This document shows positions 8,904-18,942 of a stretch of 64,000 nucleotides of DNA, one piece after another. The position numbers and the translations under genes are program-made. Source of the DNA: an uncultured Anaerolineaceae bacterium (lineage in GTDB: Bacteria > Chloroflexota > Anaerolineae > Anaerolineales > Anaerolineaceae); the NCBI GenBank assembly GCA_927443345.1, contig CAKMKJ010000006.1:1-64000 (forward strand), read 5' to 3'. Numbering within the stretch: the first letter of the stretch is position 1; each line of letters starts with the position of its first letter. The notes under the pieces are model-generated. The model was given only the letters and a program-made list of their open reading frames with translations. It had not been told where the DNA came from and did not search any database.

Positions 8904-8934
8904 TTGACAAATAATATTATAGTATTATAATATT
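8904..8934 (+). promoter_or_regulatory. padR-operon promoter with overlapping palindromic operator
   Basis: A consensus -35 TTGACA (8904-8909) and -10 TATAAT (8926-8931) are 16 bp apart. A perfect 9-bp inverted repeat, AATATTATA (8913-8921) and TATAATATT (8926-8934), covers the spacer and the -10. The start codon of the PadR gene is 7 nt after the -10, so transcription should begin at or next to its A. Autorepression is inferred from what is known of PadR proteins. Confidence 0.8.
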
Positions 8935-8937
8935 CGT

Positions 8938-9522
8938 ATGACAGAATATATCTTGACCAACGCCGAACTCGCCATCCTTAGCCTGATTGCCGAGCAACCC
9001 CGCCACGGATATGAGCTCGAACAGATTATTGAAGAACGCGGCATGCGCGACTGGACGGAAGTTGCGTTTTCTTCCATCTATTTCATTCTCAACGGATTGG
9101 TCAAAAAAGATTTGGCAGACTCGGTCTTGCAGCCGGCTGCCGGCCGCGGACCCGCCAAAAAGGTCTTCACCGCTACCCCGCTCGGTTATCAAGTGCTGCA
9201 CGATGGCATTTACTGGGCCATTTCCATCGCGGATCACGACACTAAGCGTTTTCTGCTGGGGCTGTCTTGCCTGCCGCTGCTCTCTGCACATGAAGTAGAA
9301 AGAGCATTTCAAGAACGCATGGCCTCCCTCTCTGCCAAGATCAAGTCATTTTTGACCCACTCCGCTTTTACCGTCCCGGGCTTTCCAGCACATGTGCGGG
9401 CGATGTTTGAATATTCGATTGCCATCATCCAGACCGAGCTGGATTGGTCTGAAAAATTTCTAGACGCCTATTTGAAAGGAAATTCACAAAATGGAAAAAC
9501 TGGACCTCAAAAAACAATATAA
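8938..9522 (+). CDS. PadR family transcriptional regulator
   Basis: A 194-residue regulator. Residues 1-90 are a winged-helix PadR domain with the typical ILSLIAEQPRHGYELEQII opening and the wing region near GRGPAKKVFTATPLG. The C-terminal half (about 100-190) is helical, as in the longer PadR proteins that dimerise through it. PadR proteins commonly repress small-molecule or drug response genes and are released by ligand. It is the first gene of an operon with two GyrI-like proteins and overlaps the next gene by 32 nt. The ATG falls right at the predicted transcription start, so the mRNA may lack a leader. Confidence 0.93.
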   Translation: MTEYILTNAELAILSLIAEQPRHGYELEQIIEERGMRDWTEVAFSSIYFILNGLVKKDLADSVLQPAAGRGPAKKVFTATPLGYQVLHDGIYWAISIADHDTKRFLLGLSCLPLLSAHEVERAFQERMASLSAKIKSFLTHSAFTVPGFPAHVRAMFEYSIAIIQTELDWSEKFLDAYLKGNSQNGKTGPQKTI

Positions 9523-10743: not shown

Positions 10744-11652
10744 ATGAAAAGTCTCACCCAGCCTATTGTTGAATGGATCAAATCCCAGCTTGGCAGCCAG
10801 GCTGAGATAATTGAAAACATCCGCTTGCAGGGCAGCACTTCTTCTGACCTCTTCACTATTCAAATCCGTGAGACGTCGCAGGTGTATGAATTAGTGCTGC
10901 GCCTGTTAACCAACCAGGAATGGCTGCAAACAGAACCCGATCTGGCAGACCATGAGGCTGCTGCACTGATTATGGCAAAACAAAGCGGCTTGCCCGTGCC
11001 TGAAGTGGTCGCCTGGGATGCTCAAGGTGCAAACTGCGGTGTTCCAGCCATCTTGATGACCGCTGTCCCAGGCAAGGTGAATTTGCATCCGCTTGATTTT
11101 GACGACTGGCTCAAGCAAATGGCTTCGACGCTGCAACCGCTGCACGAACTGGATGCCGCAGATTTCGGCTGGCAGTACTTTTGCTATAACAACCTAAAGA
11201 CCCTCAAAGTCCCCGAATGGTCGGCTCAGCCTGGCCTGTGGCAGCGTGCCATAGAAATCGTCAACCAGCCTCCGCCAAACACAAAATTCTGCTTCATCCA
11301 CCGCGATTACCATCCCATGAACACGCTCTGGCAGGGTGAAACCCTGAGCGGCGTGGTGGATTGGGTGAATGCCTGCCGCGGACCTGCCCCCTTCGACCTG
11401 GCCTGGAATCGCCTCAACTTGATGCTAATGTATGGGGTTGAAGCTGCTGACCGTTTGCGCGACCATGCCATTGCGATTTGCGGAGATCAGGTTTGGCATC
11501 CTTATTGGGACCTTATGGCTATGATTGAGTTGCTACCCGGCCCGCCAGAGGTGTATGCTCCCTGGCCGGTTTTTGGGTTGTGTGATCTATCGGTCAGTCT
11601 GTTGAAGCAAAGAGCAGATGCCTACTTGCTCTCGGTCTTAAAATCATTTTAA
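10744..11652 (+). CDS. Aminoglycoside phosphotransferase (APH) family kinase
   Basis: A 302-residue protein with the APH/choline-kinase fold. The catalytic loop is HRDYHPMN and the metal-binding aspartate lies in VVDWVNA, both in the usual spacing; the N-terminal lobe includes the VLRLL strand. Such enzymes phosphorylate hydroxyl groups on antibiotics, sugars, amines or coenzymes, and the substrate cannot be read from sequence. It may be the last gene of the PadR operon (39-nt gap), which would fit a drug-response theme. Its 3' end overlaps the convergent pyrD gene by 9 nt. Confidence 0.85.
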   Translation: MKSLTQPIVEWIKSQLGSQAEIIENIRLQGSTSSDLFTIQIRETSQVYELVLRLLTNQEWLQTEPDLADHEAAALIMAKQSGLPVPEVVAWDAQGANCGVPAILMTAVPGKVNLHPLDFDDWLKQMASTLQPLHELDAADFGWQYFCYNNLKTLKVPEWSAQPGLWQRAIEIVNQPPPNTKFCFIHRDYHPMNTLWQGETLSGVVDWVNACRGPAPFDLAWNRLNLMLMYGVEAADRLRDHAIAICGDQVWHPYWDLMAMIELLPGPPEVYAPWPVFGLCDLSVSLLKQRADAYLLSVLKSF

Positions 11653-12672
11653 TCCCGTGTTTATGATATTGCACACCAACCCCGGCCCCTCGTAGATCAA
11701 GCCGGTATAGAGCTGCACGAGCACGGCGCCGGCATCCAGTTTGCGTTGGGCATCTGCGGTGCACATCACCCCACCGCTGGCGACAATTGGCAAAGTACCG
11801 CCAGTACGTGCAAAGACTTTCTTGATCTTGTCAGTATTCAGATCATTCAACGGTTTGCCGCTCAGACCACCTTCTTCAAACGATTTGGAAGATACTAGGC
11901 CATCCCGCCTGAGCGTGGTGTTGCCAATGATTACGCCATCCATGCCCAAAGATTGGATGGTCTCGAGCGCGGAATCCAGTTCTTCGTCAGACAGGTCAGG
12001 CGCCAGTTTGACCAATACCGGCACCGGTTTATGGAGTGCTTTTACCTGCGCCGAACGTTCCGCAGCGACAGGGTTGAGCAGCGCTTCAAGTGCTGCACGT
12101 TGTTGCAAAGTGCGCAAACCCGGTGTATTCGGCGAACTGATGTTGACTGCCAGATAATCCGCTTTTTCAGCAAAAGCCCGCACCAAAGTGACATAATCCT
12201 CGGCGGCGCTTTCAAGCGGTGTGGATTTGTTTTTGCCAATGTTGACCCCCAATACCAGCCCTTTCGGTTTGGGTTGATTGAGATGCCGCAGCATAGGTTC
12301 CGCCCCATTGCCAGGAAAGCCCATGCGATTGATCACGGCCTCGTCTTCAACCAAACGAAAAACACGCGGTTTGGGGTTACCCGGCTGCGCGAGCGGTGTG
12401 ACGGTACCGACCTCGATGTGCCCGAACCCCAGGCAGGCTAATCCGCGCCAGGCAGTGCCTTCTTTGTCGTAACCGGCCGCCATGCCTAAAGGATTGGGAA
12501 AGGTCAGCCCAAAAGCCTTGACCTCGGGTCCGTTATGCTGAACGGGAAACATGGCGCGAATTACTGCACGTCCGAGCGCCAAACTGCCGCCCAGTGCCAG
12601 CAGGTTGATGGTGGCGTGATGGGCTTGCTCGGGGTCGTTCAAAAAAATCAATGGGCGAAGTGATTTATACAT
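11644..12672 (-). CDS. pyrD: Dihydroorotate dehydrogenase, class 2 (quinone)
   Basis: Oxidises dihydroorotate to orotate, passing electrons to quinone at the membrane, the fourth step of UMP synthesis. Visible blocks are NPLGMAAGYDKEG, GHIEVGTVTP, NRMGFPGNGA and NISSPNTPGLR; the Ser in the last is the class 2 catalytic base (class 1 has Cys). ATG 12672 (342 residues) starts MYKSLRPLIF, which fits the family better than the start 33 nt upstream. It is the last gene of the pyr run, separated from pyrFE by a GC-rich hairpin. It overlaps the convergent kinase gene by 9 nt. Confidence 0.95.
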   Translation of the reverse strand: MYKSLRPLIFLNDPEQAHHATINLLALGGSLALGRAVIRAMFPVQHNGPEVKAFGLTFPNPLGMAAGYDKEGTAWRGLACLGFGHIEVGTVTPLAQPGNPKPRVFRLVEDEAVINRMGFPGNGAEPMLRHLNQPKPKGLVLGVNIGKNKSTPLESAAEDYVTLVRAFAEKADYLAVNISSPNTPGLRTLQQRAALEALLNPVAAERSAQVKALHKPVPVLVKLAPDLSDEELDSALETIQSLGMDGVIIGNTTLRRDGLVSSKSFEEGGLSGKPLNDLNTDKIKKVFARTGGTLPIVASGGVMCTADAQRKLDAGAVLVQLYTGLIYEGPGLVCNIINTGLK

Positions 12673-12710
12673 TTGCTTGTCTTTCGGGTTTGATTCAATA
12701 GCCAAGCTTT

Positions 12711-12748: not shown

Positions 12749-14176
12749 CTAACTTGACTTAATAAAATCGCGAACGGCTGATATTTGCTCGTTCGGAATG
12801 CTGTGATTCGCTTGATAATAATCCAGCAGATCAGTGAGGGTAAAGACAGCATGCAACCGATACCCTGCCCCGGCAAGTGATTCCGCAGCGCCAGATTGGC
12901 GGTCAATCAACACGACGACATCCTCAACGATAAGACCTGCGCTTTTGAGTTTCTCAATTGCTTCAAACTTGCTCTCTCCGGTGGTCGCCAGGTCATCAAT
13001 CACGACGGTCCGCTCCCCTGCCTGATAAATACCCTCAATCTCGGCCCGGGTGCCGTAAGCTTTCGCCTCTTTACGCGGATAGATAAGCGGCCAGCCGTTT
13101 TGCAGGCTGATGGCTGTGGCCATGGGCAGCGCCGCGTATGGCAGTGCGGCTAATCGATCAAAATGTAACTTTTTCAGTATTACACTATACGCAACACCAA
13201 CTTCGGCCAGCAGCGACGGCATTGAAACCAGCCGGCGTAGATCAAGGTAAATCGGAGATTGCAGCCCTGATTTCAGGGTGAAATTGCCAAACTGAACACA
13301 ACCAGCTTTCAACAATCCCTCTGCGAGGGTTTTAAAATATGAAGGACTCTCCTCAACAGATTTGAACGCGGCATTATCTCTTCTTGCCTGGCGAATGGCG
13401 TTAGTAATCTGTTCGGCTGCCAACCGCGGATCATCCGCACGCGAAATTTGGCGCGATACCGGCACAAGCAACCCCAGCCCGTCTGCACGCAGCCCTGCCG
13501 CCAGCACGGATGAAAGCTCTCCGCCCTGAGCGCCGACACCCGGCGCTAGTATCCACAGATTGGGAGCCAGAATCCTTACCCGGCGCAATGCTTCCGGATA
13601 GGTCGCTCCTACCACAATGCCGACGTTATCCAGAGCGTTCCACCTTTCAGCAAGCTGGGCCACCTTTTCGTAGACCGTAATAGGGCTGCCTGAGTTGACC
13701 AATTGAAGGTCTTGCATATCACCTGACCCGGGATTGGAGGTTTTGCAAAGCACAAAAACACCGTGAGCAGGGTCTTTTTTGAAAGGGGTAAGCGCATCCT
13801 GCCCCAAATAGGGGTTCAAGGTGACAGCATCCGCTTTGAGCGCTTCAAAAACGGATCGCGCGTAAGCTTCAGCGGTTGAAGAGATATCACCGCGTTTGGC
13901 ATCCAGAATCACCGGCACACTTTCGGGGATGGCGTCAATCACATCCGCGAGCGCCTGCCAACCCTCCGCCCCATAAGCTTCAAAAAAAGCGGCGTTGGGT
14001 TTGAAGGCTACTGCCAGGTCTTGCGTGGCTGCTATCAATCGCAGACATAAATCCCGCGCCGCAGAAGCTGTGTCTTCGGTCAGGTCAGCGGGATGTGGAT
14101 CAAGCCCCACACATAAGAGCGAATCCAGCTTGCGGGCTCGTTCTTCCAAACAAGAGAAGAAAGATTGGGTCTCCAT
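12749..14176 (-). CDS. pyrFE: Bifunctional orotidine-5'-phosphate decarboxylase / orotate phosphoribosyltransferase
   Basis: A 475-residue fusion that would carry out the last two steps of UMP synthesis, orotate to OMP to UMP. Residues about 1-265 are a group 2 OMP decarboxylase, with the catalytic Lys94 in DAKRGD and the CVGLDP opening. Residues about 280-475 are orotate phosphoribosyltransferase, with VQFGNFTLKSG, YPRKEAKAYGT and the PRPP-binding VVIDDLATTGES at 391-402. The order PyrF-PyrE is the reverse of eukaryotic UMPS. The gene begins 3 nt after pyrB. Nothing looks degenerate in either half. Confidence 0.95.
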   Translation of the reverse strand: METQSFFSCLEERARKLDSLLCVGLDPHPADLTEDTASAARDLCLRLIAATQDLAVAFKPNAAFFEAYGAEGWQALADVIDAIPESVPVILDAKRGDISSTAEAYARSVFEALKADAVTLNPYLGQDALTPFKKDPAHGVFVLCKTSNPGSGDMQDLQLVNSGSPITVYEKVAQLAERWNALDNVGIVVGATYPEALRRVRILAPNLWILAPGVGAQGGELSSVLAAGLRADGLGLLVPVSRQISRADDPRLAAEQITNAIRQARRDNAAFKSVEESPSYFKTLAEGLLKAGCVQFGNFTLKSGLQSPIYLDLRRLVSMPSLLAEVGVAYSVILKKLHFDRLAALPYAALPMATAISLQNGWPLIYPRKEAKAYGTRAEIEGIYQAGERTVVIDDLATTGESKFEAIEKLKSAGLIVEDVVVLIDRQSGAAESLAGAGYRLHAVFTLTDLLDYYQANHSIPNEQISAVRDFIKSS

Positions 14177-14179
14177 TAA

Positions 14180-15172
14180 CTAGGCCTTCCCCAGCACCAG
14201 CGCCAGTAGAGCCATACGCACATACAGGCCATATTCCATCTGACGAAAGTAAGCTGCACGCGGATCGTTATCAAAATCCATGCTGATCTCGCCCACGCGC
14301 GGCAGCGGATGCATGACGATCATGTCACTTTTTGCTTTGGTCATCAGTTCGGGGGTGATCACATAAGAACCCCTTACTTTTTCGTAGTCTTCGGGGTTCT
14401 CAAAGCGTTCTTTTTGCACGCGGGTGACATAGAGCACATCCGTCTGGGCAAGCACCTCATCCAGACTGGTATATTCTGCCTGCGGGATGAGCTTGTCGCC
14501 AATCTCTTTGACCACATCTTCCGGCATGCGCAGTAATTCGGGTGAGACATAATTGAGTTTTACATTATAAAGCGTGAGCAGCCTGGCCAGCGAATGTACG
14601 GTACGTCCGTATTTCAGATCGCCGAGCATCGTGATGGTCAACCCGTTGACACGGCCCATTTCTTCCAGAATGGTGAAAAGATCCAGCAGCGCCTGGGTGG
14701 GATGCTCACCCGTACCGTCGCCGGCGTTGATGATGGGCTTGCGTCCGTATTGCGCAGCCAGGGCGGCTGAGCCGGTTTCAGGGTGGCGCAGCACGATCAC
14801 ATCCGAGTAGCATTCCAGCGAACGGATGGTGTCAGGCAATGATTCCCCTTTGGCCACGGAGGAATAGCGCACCTCGCTAATGGGGATTACGCTTCCGCCC
14901 AATCGCTCCATGGCAGCGGTGAATGAGGAGGATGTACGCGTTGAGGGCTCATAAAAAAGGTTGGTGAGAATCTTTCCCTTTAGCATGTCAAAGGTTCCCA
15001 CCCGGCGCACCATTTCTTGCATCTCATGCGCCACACCAAATATGTAGTTTAAGTCGGCATGATTGAACTGTTTGACCGAGAGAATGTCTTTGCCGTAGAA
15101 GGGTGCGTCCTGGCGGTCGCCAAAAGGTAAATAGGGGTTCATTTGATTGAGGGTCGCAGTTTGAATGGTCAT
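14180..15172 (-). CDS. pyrB: Aspartate carbamoyltransferase catalytic chain
   Basis: Condenses carbamoyl phosphate with aspartate, the committed step of pyrimidine synthesis. At 330 residues it is slightly longer than the usual 305-310, through an N-terminal extension of about 20 residues. Carbamoyl-phosphate residues are visible in STRTS (77-81), and [11 protein letters not shown] and the MHPLPR motif are intact. No regulatory chain (pyrI) lies in this window. It follows pyrC after 24 nt and precedes pyrFE by 3 nt, so it lies inside one operon. Upstream AGGAGG supports the start. Confidence 0.96.
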
Positions 15173-15196
15173 GTTCCTCCTTTATAAAAAGATTGA

Positions 15197-16261
15197 TTAT
15201 TGGATGATTGCTCTCAAGTCGCAGCCAAAACCTGGCTGGCTCAAAACCTGTCCGTCTTTAAAAACTTCCTCACCGCGCAAAACGACGCGGGTGACTCTGC
15301 CCTGCACCAACCTCCCTTCAAAGGGCGTCCAACCAGCACGCGAATGTAGATCCTCGCCGTAGATAGGCCAGACAGCGTTTTCATCCACCTCGACCCAGGT
15401 TTCAGGCTGTTCGGGCAGTCCAAAGATGCGTCGAGGGTTGGTATAGCAGAGGTCAATCAACTCCTCGAGGCACAAAAGATCTTGATTCACGGCGGTCAAA
15501 TAAAGAGGTAGCGCTGTCTCAAGACCCGGAAAACCCGGCGGAGGTGTGGCGCCGTCTTTTTCAGCCAGGGTGTGCGGCGCGTGGTCGCTGGCAAAACAAT
15601 CAACCGCATCCAGGTTATCCCACAGGGCTTTTTGATCTGCCAGACTTGCCAGGCGCGGACGCACTTCTGATCTTCCGCTTCCGATGGTGGGGATATCCGC
15701 TTCGGTGAGAAAAAGATGATGCGGCGCAACCTCACAGGTCACCGGTGCACCTCGTTCTTTGGCGGCACGGATCAGCAGAATTTCGTCTTTGCGTGAAACG
15801 TGACAAAAATGGACGGGGCGCTTCATTTCAACGGCCAGCTTGAGCGCAGCAGCCAGGGTCTCGCCTTCGGCGTGCACGCAGAGAGGTTTGTTAACTGGCC
15901 AACGTTCAAAGTGCTTTCGCCAGGCAGCTTGATCCGTCAGGCGCAGCGGACCGTAGGTCTGGTCGAGGTACATCTTCATCCCTGCGGCTTTATTGGCCAG
16001 TGTGGGAAGTTTAGAAGCGTTATCTGCCCCCGCCCCAACAAATTGAGCATAGTCGCAGTGAGCTTTCTGCCCAGCCAAAGTCAAAGCAAGCGAGAGCGTT
16101 TCTTCATCACAAATCGGCGGCGCTGTGTTAGGCATAGCCAGCACGGCGGTGAATCCGCCAGCCAGAGCAGCGGCGGTGCCGCTCTTCCAGTCTTCTTTGT
16201 AGGTGGCACCCGGTTCACGCAGGTGCACGTGCGGGTCAATTAATCCTGGTAGACGCAGCAT
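15197..16261 (-). CDS. pyrC: Dihydroorotase
   Basis: Cyclises carbamoyl-aspartate to dihydroorotate. The 354-residue protein begins MLRLPGLIDPHVHLREPG, holding the metal-binding HxH (His11, His13) of the amidohydrolase superfamily, without the usual 45-50-residue N-terminal barrel segment. Further landmarks are MPNTAPP, HVSRKDE, CEVAPHH and the catalytic-Asp segment FASDHAPH. It is the first structural gene of pyrC-pyrB-pyrFE-pyrD and is preceded by a 160-nt leader with an attenuator-like terminator. SD-like AAAGGAT lies 8 nt before the ATG. Confidence 0.93.
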   Translation of the reverse strand: MLRLPGLIDPHVHLREPGATYKEDWKSGTAAALAGGFTAVLAMPNTAPPICDEETLSLALTLAGQKAHCDYAQFVGAGADNASKLPTLANKAAGMKMYLDQTYGPLRLTDQAAWRKHFERWPVNKPLCVHAEGETLAAALKLAVEMKRPVHFCHVSRKDEILLIRAAKERGAPVTCEVAPHHLFLTEADIPTIGSGRSEVRPRLASLADQKALWDNLDAVDCFASDHAPHTLAEKDGATPPPGFPGLETALPLYLTAVNQDLLCLEELIDLCYTNPRRIFGLPEQPETWVEVDENAVWPIYGEDLHSRAGWTPFEGRLVQGRVTRVVLRGEEVFKDGQVLSQPGFGCDLRAIIQ

Positions 16262-16300
16262 TTCAGATCCTTTCTGGTCGCGGTCGACCTTACAGGTTTC

Positions 16301-16329
16301 AAAAAAAAGAGAGCCTCAAAAGGCTCTCT
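16301..16329 (-). terminator. Attenuator-type terminator in the pyr leader
   Basis: On the minus strand, AGAGAGCCT (16329-16321) pairs with AGGCTCTCT (16316-16308) around a 4-nt loop and is followed by a run of T to 16301. It lies after the pyr promoter and 40 nt before pyrC, so it can only act within the operon leader. The stop codon of the leader ORF touches its first stem base. Confidence 0.88.
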
Positions 16330-16418
16330 CAGAAAATCAAATTAATGATGGCTCGACGGCCGCCAGCGATGACTCTCCCTGGTTTTTGGCGGCATTTGAT
16401 GTGCTCGTGGTTTCTCAT
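16329..16418 (-). CDS. Putative 29-residue pyr leader peptide
   Basis: An ATG at 16418, only 3-5 nt past the predicted transcription start, opens a 29-codon frame that stops with TGA at 16331-16329, on the first base of the terminator stem. The peptide begins MRNHEHIKCRQK and ends GGRRAIINLIF. Its last codons lie in a U-rich tract (10 U in 18 nt). There is no Shine-Dalgarno sequence, so it would be translated as a near-leaderless message. The position, not the sequence, argues for a regulatory role like that of the enteric pyrBI leader peptide. Translation is not proven. Confidence 0.55.
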   Translation of the reverse strand: MRNHEHIKCRQKPGRVIAGGRRAIINLIF

Positions 16419-16427
16419 ATTGGACTA

Positions 16428-16455
16428 ATTTTATGCCGATTTGGCATTCTGTCAA
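16428..16455 (-). promoter_or_regulatory. Promoter of the pyr operon
   Basis: Reading leftward, TTGACA (16455-16450) is followed after 16 bp by TAAAAT (16433-16428). The spacer holds a small palindrome, GCC-x5-GGC. The predicted start is near 16421, about 160 nt upstream of pyrC. Confidence 0.8.
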
Positions 16456-16492
16456 GGGTTGTATAGACAAGTAAAAATTATGCCTCACCTCC

Positions 16493-16526
16493 TAAAAAAA
16501 CTCTGACCTCGAAATAGATCAGAGTT
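16493..16526 (-). terminator. Terminator of the first paralogous small-protein gene
   Basis: ACTCTGA (16500-16506) pairs with TCAGAGT (16519-16525); read leftward the stem ends in seven T residues. It separates the small gene at 16563 from the pyr promoter. Confidence 0.8.
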
Positions 16527-16562
16527 ATCATTTATACAGATCTAATCCACAAAGTAAGAATA

Positions 16563-16865
16563 TTACTTTTTATAAGCCGCAATAACAGCATCTGCATTGA
16601 CAATATTTTTCTCAGGAGCCGGTGGAGGTGCAGCAGATTCTCTGGAAGCCAGTGTACGTAAAGCTTCAGCACTTTCTGAGGCTGGTTTCTGTTTAACTTC
16701 TTCTGCACTAAATTCTTTGTTTTCTCTGATAGGCGCCGTATTTTGTTGAGACCCAGAAGTCATCTTTGCGGCTTCTGCTTTTTCAACTTCGGTTTTTTGA
16801 TCCGTGGCATTGACCTCTTGAGGTTTGGGCGTCTGATAAGAAACTCGGTTAATTGGACTAATCAT
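16563..16865 (-). CDS. Small Ala/Glu-rich protein, paralogue A
   Basis: A 100-residue hydrophilic protein without signal peptide, rich in Ala, Glu, Lys and Pro and probably largely disordered. It starts MISPINRVSYQTP. Its end, EALRTLASRES followed by VNADAVIAAYKK, is matched by the protein encoded at 17026 (EALQILASQER and PESVLAAYRNN). The two are therefore tandem relatives sharing both termini, with a variable middle. I do not recognise the family. An adaptor or secreted-substrate-like role is conceivable from the conserved ends, but unsupported. Confidence 0.65.
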   Translation of the reverse strand: MISPINRVSYQTPKPQEVNATDQKTEVEKAEAAKMTSGSQQNTAPIRENKEFSAEEVKQKPASESAEALRTLASRESAAPPPAPEKNIVNADAVIAAYKK

Positions 16866-16974
16866 TTTTCACCTCTCAATAACAATAAAAGGATACAGCT
16901 TCTCTAATTAATATTATCGGCAGATAATCTATAAACTTTAATAATTATCTATATTGGATGAGTCAGTTTAACTT

Positions 16975-17004
16975 TAAAAACCCCACCTTCATAAGAAGAT
17001 GGGG
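16975..17004 (-). terminator. Terminator of the second paralogous small-protein gene
   Basis: CCCCACCTTC (16981-16990) pairs with GAAGATGGGG (16995-17004) around ATAA with one mismatch; read leftward it is followed by TTTTT. Confidence 0.85.
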
Positions 17005-17025
17005 AATCAAGATTATGTGACCCTT

Positions 17026-17508
17026 CTAATTATTGCGGTATGCAGCTAAAACAGATTCCGGGCTGATCGAGGATTTCAAGGTAATGATCGACGGGGAACC
17101 TCTCTCTTGAGAAGCTAAAATCTGTAAGGCTTCTTTGGCCTTTACAGCAGGAGATTCTTTAACTTTGCCTGCCTTGGCTTCTTTAAATTCCTTTTCAGAT
17201 TCTGCTTTCAAGTTGACCGAAACGTTAACTGAAGGGGTATTGACCGCTACAGAAGCTATTGCAATGGTTTCAGGAGGCGTAATATTTTTTATTTTGTTTC
17301 TTTCCAAAATACCAGGTGTTCCATTTGCTGACTCTTTGGCTGAAGAAGATGTTATTCCGACTTTTATATCTTCATGTACTCCGCGTGCAGAAGCTGAAGC
17401 GGAACTATTGGTGACAGTAGTTTTTGGAGCAGAATTTTTATCAGCGGCGAGTGTCGCGCCGTAATAAACGGCTGTGTTGGCAATATTGGGTGTGATTGGA
17501 TGTATCAT
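17026..17508 (-). CDS. Small Ser/Ala-rich protein, paralogue B
   Basis: A 160-residue protein. ATG 17508 is chosen because AGGAGAGG precedes it; the earlier in-frame start lacks a site. The first residues MIHPITPN parallel MISPINRV of the neighbour, and the C-terminal 40 residues carry the shared EAL-x2-LAS-x-E and V-x-AAY motifs. The middle is longer than in paralogue A and rich in Ser, Thr, Val and Lys, with low complexity. No signal or membrane helix. Each gene has its own terminator, so they appear to be transcribed separately. Confidence 0.65.
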   Translation of the reverse strand: MIHPITPNIANTAVYYGATLAADKNSAPKTTVTNSSASASARGVHEDIKVGITSSSAKESANGTPGILERNKIKNITPPETIAIASVAVNTPSVNVSVNLKAESEKEFKEAKAGKVKESPAVKAKEALQILASQERGSPSIITLKSSISPESVLAAYRNN

Positions 17509-17625
17509 TTTATATCCTCTCCTGGTATCAATTGATGCAGGTAACAAGTAAATTATTATAACATTACTTTTAAATTACTACTTTAGAGTTTTGAAAGGTT
17601 TTAGTGATGATTGAGACCCCTAAAC

Positions 17626-17654
17626 AAAAAAGCTGAAGAGTTCACAGCTTTTTT
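17626..17654. terminator. Terminator after the MFS gene
   Basis: AAAAAAGCTG (17626-17635) pairs with CAGCTTTTTT (17645-17654). Symmetric A/T tracts let it act on both strands; the leftward MFS gene ends 32 nt to its right. Confidence 0.8.
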
Positions 17655-17685
17655 GAATGAGAAAATTTGTGGCAATATCTGTTTA

Positions 17686-18942
17686 CTATTTTGTTAGCCG
17701 GGTTTTAGGCATCCATAAAAACATCATGAGCGCGGCAATCAAGGCAAGGGTACCGCCAAAAATAAATGGTGCTGATGGGCCAAATCCGTCCCAACTGCCG
17801 ACCCCCTGCCAAAGGATGCCCGCAATCAGAGAAGATGGAAATGCCAACAACCCTATCACGGCATGATAAGTACCATACGCGGTCCCTCTCAAATTTTCGG
17901 AAACCAAATCCGCAACCATCGCGTTGGCGGTACCGAATGCCAGCCCATAATAGATGCCATAAACAATATAGAGAACCCACACCTGCCAAGCGGATTGTGC
18001 CAAAGCGAAGCCAAAATAGATGGCTGCATACACCAACCAGCCGCCGATGATCAAGCGCCTGCGGCCAATGCGATCAGACCATGATCCGGCTGGGGTGGCA
18101 ATCAGCGCAATCACAAGGTTGTAGGCTGCCAGCATGATCAAAATACCCACCACCGAAAGACCTAAGTTCTGAGCTCGTAGCACGAGAAACCCGTCAGAAG
18201 AATTGCCAAGGGTAAAGATACTGACAATAATCAGAAATATTGTGAAGGGTTTACCCATGTTTTTGAATGAAAACTTTGGCGCTTCACGAACCCCGGCGAC
18301 TTTAACTTCCTTAGTGCCGAGTGCCAGTGTAAGAACTGCCAGTACAGCCGGGATGAGACTGATCAACACAAGCGTCTGAAAAGTGGATCGAGTGAGGGCA
18401 AGCGTATTTTTCTGCGCCAGCCAGACTACCAGGGCGGCAATGAGCAAGCCAAGGTTAGCCCCTGCTTTATCCATGGCCCGGTTGAATCCGAAGGCCAATC
18501 CGCGTAAGGCCATGGGGGTTGAATCCGCGACCAGTGCGTCACGCGGCGCGGTGCGGATTCCCTTGCCCACCCGATCTGCCCAACGAACACCCGCCACCAA
18601 TCCCCAGGTATTGGCAAGAAAAAAGAAAGGTTTCGAGAGAGCCGAAAATGCATAGCCAAGTACGGCCAGCCATTTTCGTCCGTGTAATTTGTCAGAAAGC
18701 CAACCAGAAAACACCTTTAGAATGCTGGCGGTGGCTTCTGCGATGCCCTCGATCAATCCGATGACACTGGTTTGTACCCCAAGCACGTTAGCCAGAAACA
18801 GCGGCAGAATGTTCAGTACCATGTCGCTTGAGATATCCATAAAGAAACTGGTGAAACCGACTGCCCAAACATTGCGGGGTAAGTCTTTAACGGTGGGACG
18901 CTTTGCGTGTTCATCAGTTCTTACTATAGGTTTTTCTGCCAC
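17686..18942 (-). CDS. Major facilitator superfamily transporter
   Basis: A 418-residue protein with about twelve transmembrane segments in two halves. Visible family features are SWLSDKLHGRKW-like loop 2-3 (here GWLSDKLHGRKW), the ADRVGKGIRTAPRDAL block and, in the second half, GSWSDRIGRRRLIIGG. The ADRVGKGIRTAPRDAL segment is typical of a bacterial subfamily annotated as generic MFS or drug-resistance efflux proteins. Substrate unknown. The cytoplasmic N-terminus is charged. Monocistronic, with a terminator downstream. Confidence 0.9.
   Translation of the reverse strand: MAEKPIVRTDEHAKRPTVKDLPRNVWAVGFTSFFMDISSDMVLNILPLFLANVLGVQTSVIGLIEGIAEATASILKVFSGWLSDKLHGRKWLAVLGYAFSALSKPFFFLANTWGLVAGVRWADRVGKGIRTAPRDALVADSTPMALRGLAFGFNRAMDKAGANLGLLIAALVVWLAQKNTLALTRSTFQTLVLISLIPAVLAVLTLALGTKEVKVAGVREAPKFSFKNMGKPFTIFLIIVSIFTLGNSSDGFLVLRAQNLGLSVVGILIMLAAYNLVIALIATPAGSWSDRIGRRRLIIGGWLVYAAIYFGFALAQSAWQVWVLYIVYGIYYGLAFGTANAMVADLVSENLRGTAYGTYHAVIGLLAFPSSLIAGILWQGVGSWDGFGPSAPFIFGGTLALIAALMMFLWMPKTRLTK

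Follow-up and report, generated by a model that had tools for sequence, protein, structure and literature searches.

The pyrimidine (pyr) operon in the window (i.e., the whole 64,000-nt stretch of DNA that was analyzed) is preceded by a leader that probably acts as a translation-coupled, UTP-responsive attenuator of de novo pyrimidine synthesis. The layout is similar to that of pyrBI, with a start that is predicted to be leaderless, and in relatives the same element probably controls uracil uptake as well. Attenuation of the pyrBI type, which is known from enteric bacteria, is a textbook case of nucleotide sensing through the coupling of ribosome and polymerase. The initial annotation had suggested this logic for the window, with a different peptide and no Shine-Dalgarno (SD) sequence. 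That suggestion is supported by the conserved placement of start and stop among relatives and by the absence of PyrR, with UTP as the presumed signal.

All elements of this leader are located on the minus strand of the window. The promoter, ATG, 29-codon frame, TGA, U-rich tract, terminator, and stem that had been annotated were confirmed by a minus-strand read, exact to the base. The sigma-70-type promoter TTGACA-16-TAAAAT (16428–16455) consists of TTGACA at 16455–16450, a 16-nt spacer, and TAAAAT at 16433–16428. It has 11 of 12 consensus matches and is the top promoter-like site in the region 15000–17700. Based on promoter spacing and the base preferences of related leaders, transcription is predicted to start at the purine at +7/+8 after the -10 box (16420–16421). 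The ATG (16418–16416) lies 9 nt past the -10 box and thus 2–3 nt past the likely purine start (16421/16420). It opens a near-leaderless ORF of 29 codons plus TGA (MRNHEHIKCRQKPGRVIAGGRRAIINLIF; 16329–16418), with the TGA at 16331–16329. Within this ORF, a mid-ORF stem GCCGCCA/TGGCGGC (16359–16393; arms 16393–16387 and 16365–16359; -13.2 kcal/mol) is a candidate RNA polymerase pause hairpin, and a U-rich tract (TTAATTTGATTTTCT; 16331–16345) is a candidate UTP-sensitive pause region. An intrinsic terminator, GAGAGAGCC-TTTT-GGCTCTCTT followed by a T run (16300–16330), represents the putative attenuator; its GAGAGCC/GGCTCTC pairing is kept in most relatives. The terminator stem (16330–16307) has 10 pairs and begins at the G of the TGA, and the distance from start to stem is 89 nt. 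The first gene of the operon is pyrC (dihydroorotase; 15197–16261), which has the SD-like sequence AGAAAGGA ahead of its ATG at 16261. It is followed on the same strand by pyrB (aspartate carbamoyltransferase; 14180–15172), a pyrF-pyrE fusion (orotidine-5'-phosphate decarboxylase/orotate phosphoribosyltransferase; 12749–14176), and pyrD (quinone-dependent dihydroorotate dehydrogenase; 11644–12705), giving the order pyrC-pyrB-pyrF/E-pyrD. No promoter-like site was reported between the terminator and pyrC in the window, such that the simplest assumption is that the operon is reached by polymerases reading through the terminator.

Several other features of the window were recorded. A second strong promoter, TTGACA-16-TATAAT, is found at 8904–8940 on the plus strand, with an ATG 6 nt past the -10 box that opens the ORF 8938–9522 (+). 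By the look of the protein, this ORF encodes a PadR-like regulator, and an AT-rich palindrome within the promoter could be the operator of this regulator itself. Two neighboring small ORFs on the minus strand (16563–16865 and 17026–17547) have similar C-terminal ends (VIAAYKK and VLAAYRNN), are followed by terminators, and resemble tandem paralogues; the 16563–16865 ORF has no NCBIfam match.

Homologous loci were gathered by PyrC matches. Within the family, TTGAC(A/T)-16-TANAAT followed by an ATG within 3–13 nt is present in 35 of the 36 loci with a closely related PyrC, and the remaining locus has its ATG 18 nt past the -10 box. When the start codon was chosen without open-frame preference, the reading frame from ATG to terminator stem in 35 family leaders contained a single stop (9 nt before the stem), compared with 55 in the +1 frame and 28 in the +2 frame. 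In other genera, less closely related PyrC genes (about 50% identity) differ in their 5' regions. An order-level set was also compiled from many families, resulting in 74 parsed leaders, which are related to one another such that their counts are not independent. Carriers of the element include the cultured strains Thermanaerothrix daxensis GNS-1 and Leptolinea tardivitalis YMTK-2. The promoter TTGAC-16-TANAAT is kept in 73 of the 74, as is the 16-nt spacer, and the start codon (73 ATG and one GTG) is mostly found 8–12 nt past the -10 box. Here the start codon was sought within a set range of distances downstream of the -10 box, and if there were two candidates, one with an open frame was preferred. 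All 74 frames are open, with no stop in 1629 frame-0 codons, versus 61 and 46 stops in the other frames. After clustering of leaders that share at least six 8-mers, frame 0 is open in all 42, versus 16 and 22 for the other frames (shuffle product about 1e-12). The initial annotation had proposed conserved ATG-to-stop placement as a check, and this conservation was found. It had also supposed that the sensing logic evolved here. The element itself stands, but it occurs order-wide and also before uracil permease genes and hence is not local; judged from sequence comparison, it is best interpreted as an ancient and conserved device.

The position of the stop is more variable than that of the start. 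Many leaders have it at the base of the stem as in the window, others in the loop or near the pyrC start, and in none of the 74 is it more than 9 nt upstream of the terminator stem. In two loci (L043 and L326), the leader frame runs in phase into pyrC without a stop, and readthrough transcripts from these loci would yield an N-terminally extended dihydroorotase. Several loci scored as having no element through strict terminator rules (for example, L025, L074, and L092) visibly carry it. In L028, the ATG first assigned precedes the start site, and a better ORF, 24 codons long, stops at the base of the stem (L348). In a class-level promoter scan, the pattern was clear in L161, L163, L176, and L206, which are loci of other orders. 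Elsewhere in the class, permissive rules gave just suggestive starts (including GTG), so no claim is made there. In one order member of family f12 (L248), a similar leader is located 677 nt upstream of pyrB and precedes a small PII/NIF3-like ORF, which is followed by pyrB; the pyrC of this genome stands elsewhere (L210). Among genomes of the same genus as the window (within G124–G138), 12 of 16 have no close PyrC match, and those checked have PyrB-like matches of about 40% identity or none. De novo pyrimidine synthesis has perhaps been lost in these genomes.

The association with pyrimidine genes was also recovered when genes were disregarded. The pattern TTGACA-16-TANAAT-N6..12-ATG-N62..92-GAGAGCC was searched for in the genomes of 84,980 species, and at least 118 sites were found. 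Among the matches listed, 59 have the complementary arm and a T run. At these 59 listed terminator sites, frame 0 is open in 58, whereas the +1 and +2 frames are open in 11 and 24, respectively. Directly downstream is pyrC in 46 cases and, as judged by best family match only, a uracil permease in 12; the last site runs off the contig end. The 59 listed sites without a terminator have ordinary stop counts (72, 79, and 56 by frame) and no credible pyr gene. Two loci (L335 and L389) have tandem copies, one before the permease and the second before pyrC. These two, along with L281, L297, L304, and L392, carry the attenuator before a uracil permease-like gene that itself lies upstream of pyrC.

For the start region, none of the 74 leaders has an SD-like tetramer 5–14 nt upstream of the leader start, and an SD-like sequence is present at 51 of the 74 pyrC starts. 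After the -10 box, positions +5 and +6 are C in 73% and 51% of the leaders, respectively, and +8 is A or G in 98%, suggesting a 5' UTR of 0–5 nt in nearly all of them. The leaderless status of these ORFs is accordingly a prediction from their promoters. Further downstream, a C/G-rich hairpin zone precedes the U-rich tract in the relatives. In 68 leaders, T accounts for 46–54% of the 18 nt before the stem, versus about 20% further upstream. The hairpin zone folds better than shuffled sequences on average (mean z -1.58). The signal is strong in families f14, f8, and f5 and not in the large family f12, where the hairpin is weak or missing, as is also the case for several members of the family to which the window belongs. 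For one hairpin type, which occupies a place equivalent to the window stem in 17 relatives, two-sided changes were found in 6 of 12 pairs, and 90.7% of cells are paired, far less when the alignment is slid. A recurring form of the mid-ORF hairpin, CGCCCCGGAGC...GCUCC-N-GU-GGGCG, has asymmetric bulges, encodes RPGAxxPxG, and is found in L022, L070–L084, L097, L098, L118, L128, and L163. It is possibly a distinct RNA motif.

These features may be combined into the following mechanism. Transcription would begin 0–5 nt before the AUG, so that a ribosome could bind at the 5' end of the emerging transcript with no need for an SD sequence. With ample UTP, RNA polymerase would outrun the ribosome, the terminator would form, and transcription would stop before pyrC. 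When UTP is scarce, the polymerase would pause past the hairpin, in the 18-nt U-rich tract, and the ribosome would catch up with it, reaching or passing through the terminator stem. Because the window ORF ends at the first base of the stem, the ribosome footprint would cover the 5' arm. With the terminator blocked, the polymerase would continue into pyrC-pyrB-pyrFE-pyrD. A bolder form of this hypothesis, to which we give even odds, is that leaderless 70S-type initiation at the nascent 5' end is the timing device of the UTP sensor and arose independently of enteric pyrBI. The race between ribosome loading, once the AUG leaves RNA polymerase, and the polymerase crossing the U-rich tract about 70–90 nt later would then set pyr expression across this Chloroflexota order, with start-site choice among C/purine residues as a possible second input.

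Other explanations of the leader ORF have to be considered. If it were a chance frame between an ordinary promoter and an ordinary terminator, there would be no regulation at all. The window ORF alone would agree with this, as it is expected by chance: 67% of dinucleotide-shuffled leaders stay open, and thus the significance of the ORF comes from the comparison with relatives. However, the order-wide conservation and the gene-blind scan, together with the lack of a second promoter-like site from terminator to pyrC, leave this explanation with almost no probability; barring a systematic artefact, it is refuted by the sequence comparison. It is also extremely improbable that the ORF encodes a functional small protein or the leader peptide of an amino-acid-type attenuator. 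Although a short ORF in a conserved place ahead of a terminator is what such explanations predict, the leaders have no common peptide or regulatory codon run, and their stops fall at or past the stem or at most 9 nt before it. Moreover, the codon differences comprise 80 synonymous versus 239 nonsynonymous changes, and the counts by codon position are 144/143/192 (8/14/12 among the closest relatives of the window). The initial annotation had looked to codon-position-3 variation as a sign of translation. The enrichment is weak, indicating that the open frame is conserved and the peptide is not. The lack of peptide conservation argues against amino-acid sensing and suggests that the act of translation, not its product, matters. 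Given that there is no clear purifying selection on the peptide, stop avoidance is the sole argument for translation.

Explanations that accept a regulated terminator differ in the signal or in its reader. In PyrR-type attenuation, the mid-leader stem would be a PyrR-binding loop, and PyrR with UMP would promote termination. The conserved CCAGGGAGAG in the window stem loosely resembles the PyrR binding loop, and pyrR is present elsewhere in the family (genus g10). However, the loop sequence is common to the closest relatives only. The best protein in the window genome (98.8% complete) scores 36 bits against a PyrR cut-off of 138, and ten phosphoribosyltransferase-domain matches look, on inspection, like members of the hpt, apt, prs, xpt, comF, purF, upp, and pyrE types. 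PyrR was found in 10 of 147 family genomes, all of genus g10, and in none of the 36 element-bearing genomes. Furthermore, Rfam RF00515 has no match in the window or eight relatives; no Rfam family reached its gathering score on the window, and chance matches appeared only at a loose threshold. PyrR control is thus largely refuted and highly improbable. The initial annotation had left the stem as either a pause hairpin or a PyrR-like site and had held that a pyrR gene with a PyrR-binding stem would favor the other mechanism. Neither was found, and with no PyrR gene or Rfam match, a pause hairpin is the preferable interpretation of the stem. Alternatively, the same attenuator with the same translated leaderless ORF may read another signal, such as general translation capacity or purine or CTP pools. 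The sequence names no signal, the coupling hangs on the speed of ribosome and polymerase, and any non-UTP signal that uncouples the two would fit the same anatomy. Nevertheless, this alternative is rather unlikely, considering that pyrC or a uracil permease follows 58 of the 59 listed terminator sites and that the sequence leading up to the terminator is enriched in U specifically, rather than in A, C, or G. A different type of control, start-site switching, operates at enteric pyrC and pyrD. Applied to these leaders, CTP, GTP, or ATP levels would pick the 5' end at the C-rich stretch before the purine start and thereby alter leaderless initiation. The C residues at +5/+6 and the purine at +8 agree with this, and leaderless initiation should respond to extra 5' nucleotides. 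Yet start-site selection leaves the U-rich tract, the terminator, and the open frame unexplained. As the main control it is very unlikely, and it may be an additional input at most.

In the literature searched (a limited library), no report of such a pyr attenuator in Chloroflexota, or of Chloroflexi/Anaerolineae pyr leaders, was found. What appears to be new is a pyrBI-like layout with a start that lacks an SD sequence, found across a large order in a phylum far removed from the enteric bacteria; in that literature, the element is undescribed. It allows a direct test of whether a leaderless start proceeds quickly enough for a ribosome to become coupled to the polymerase within about 90 nt, and it adds many small leader ORFs, descriptions of which were not found in the same literature.

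Among known systems, Escherichia coli pyrBI is the closest. At low UTP, the polymerase pauses on the U-rich leader, and the coupled ribosome blocks the terminator, resulting in readthrough (PMC10135430; PMC5021804). In the E. coli pyrL sequence examined here, start and stem are 88 nt apart, compared with 89 nt in the window. In both leaders, a hairpin is followed by a U tract and then by the terminator, and both serve a pyr operon with no repressor. In amino-acid attenuators, more than 20 bp separate the leader gene from the terminator downstream of it, whereas the pyrBI terminator is located within the leader gene (PMC4824070). The leaders described here follow the pyrBI rule: as in pyrL, the terminator is inside or at the end of the ORF, which in these leaders is presumably translated. 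However, pyrL has an SD sequence and a longer 5' UTR (here predicted to be 0–5 nt, with SD in 0 of 74 leaders) and runs 44 codons through the terminator, whereas the window ORF ends at the stem base. The first gene is pyrB in E. coli and pyrC or a uracil permease here. The PyrR attenuator (Rfam RF00515) likewise places a terminator in the pyr leader but differs in that neither a PyrR gene nor a binding-loop match was found here. Leaderless genes account for a few percent of genes in some Chloroflexi (PMC3160421). A leaderless attenuator ORF is known from trpL of Sinorhizobium meliloti, in which the AUG is at the 5' end of the transcript (PMC7298713). The window leader is predicted to share this start, whereas trpL belongs to a tryptophan operon and encodes a 14-aa leader peptide for amino-acid rather than nucleotide sensing.
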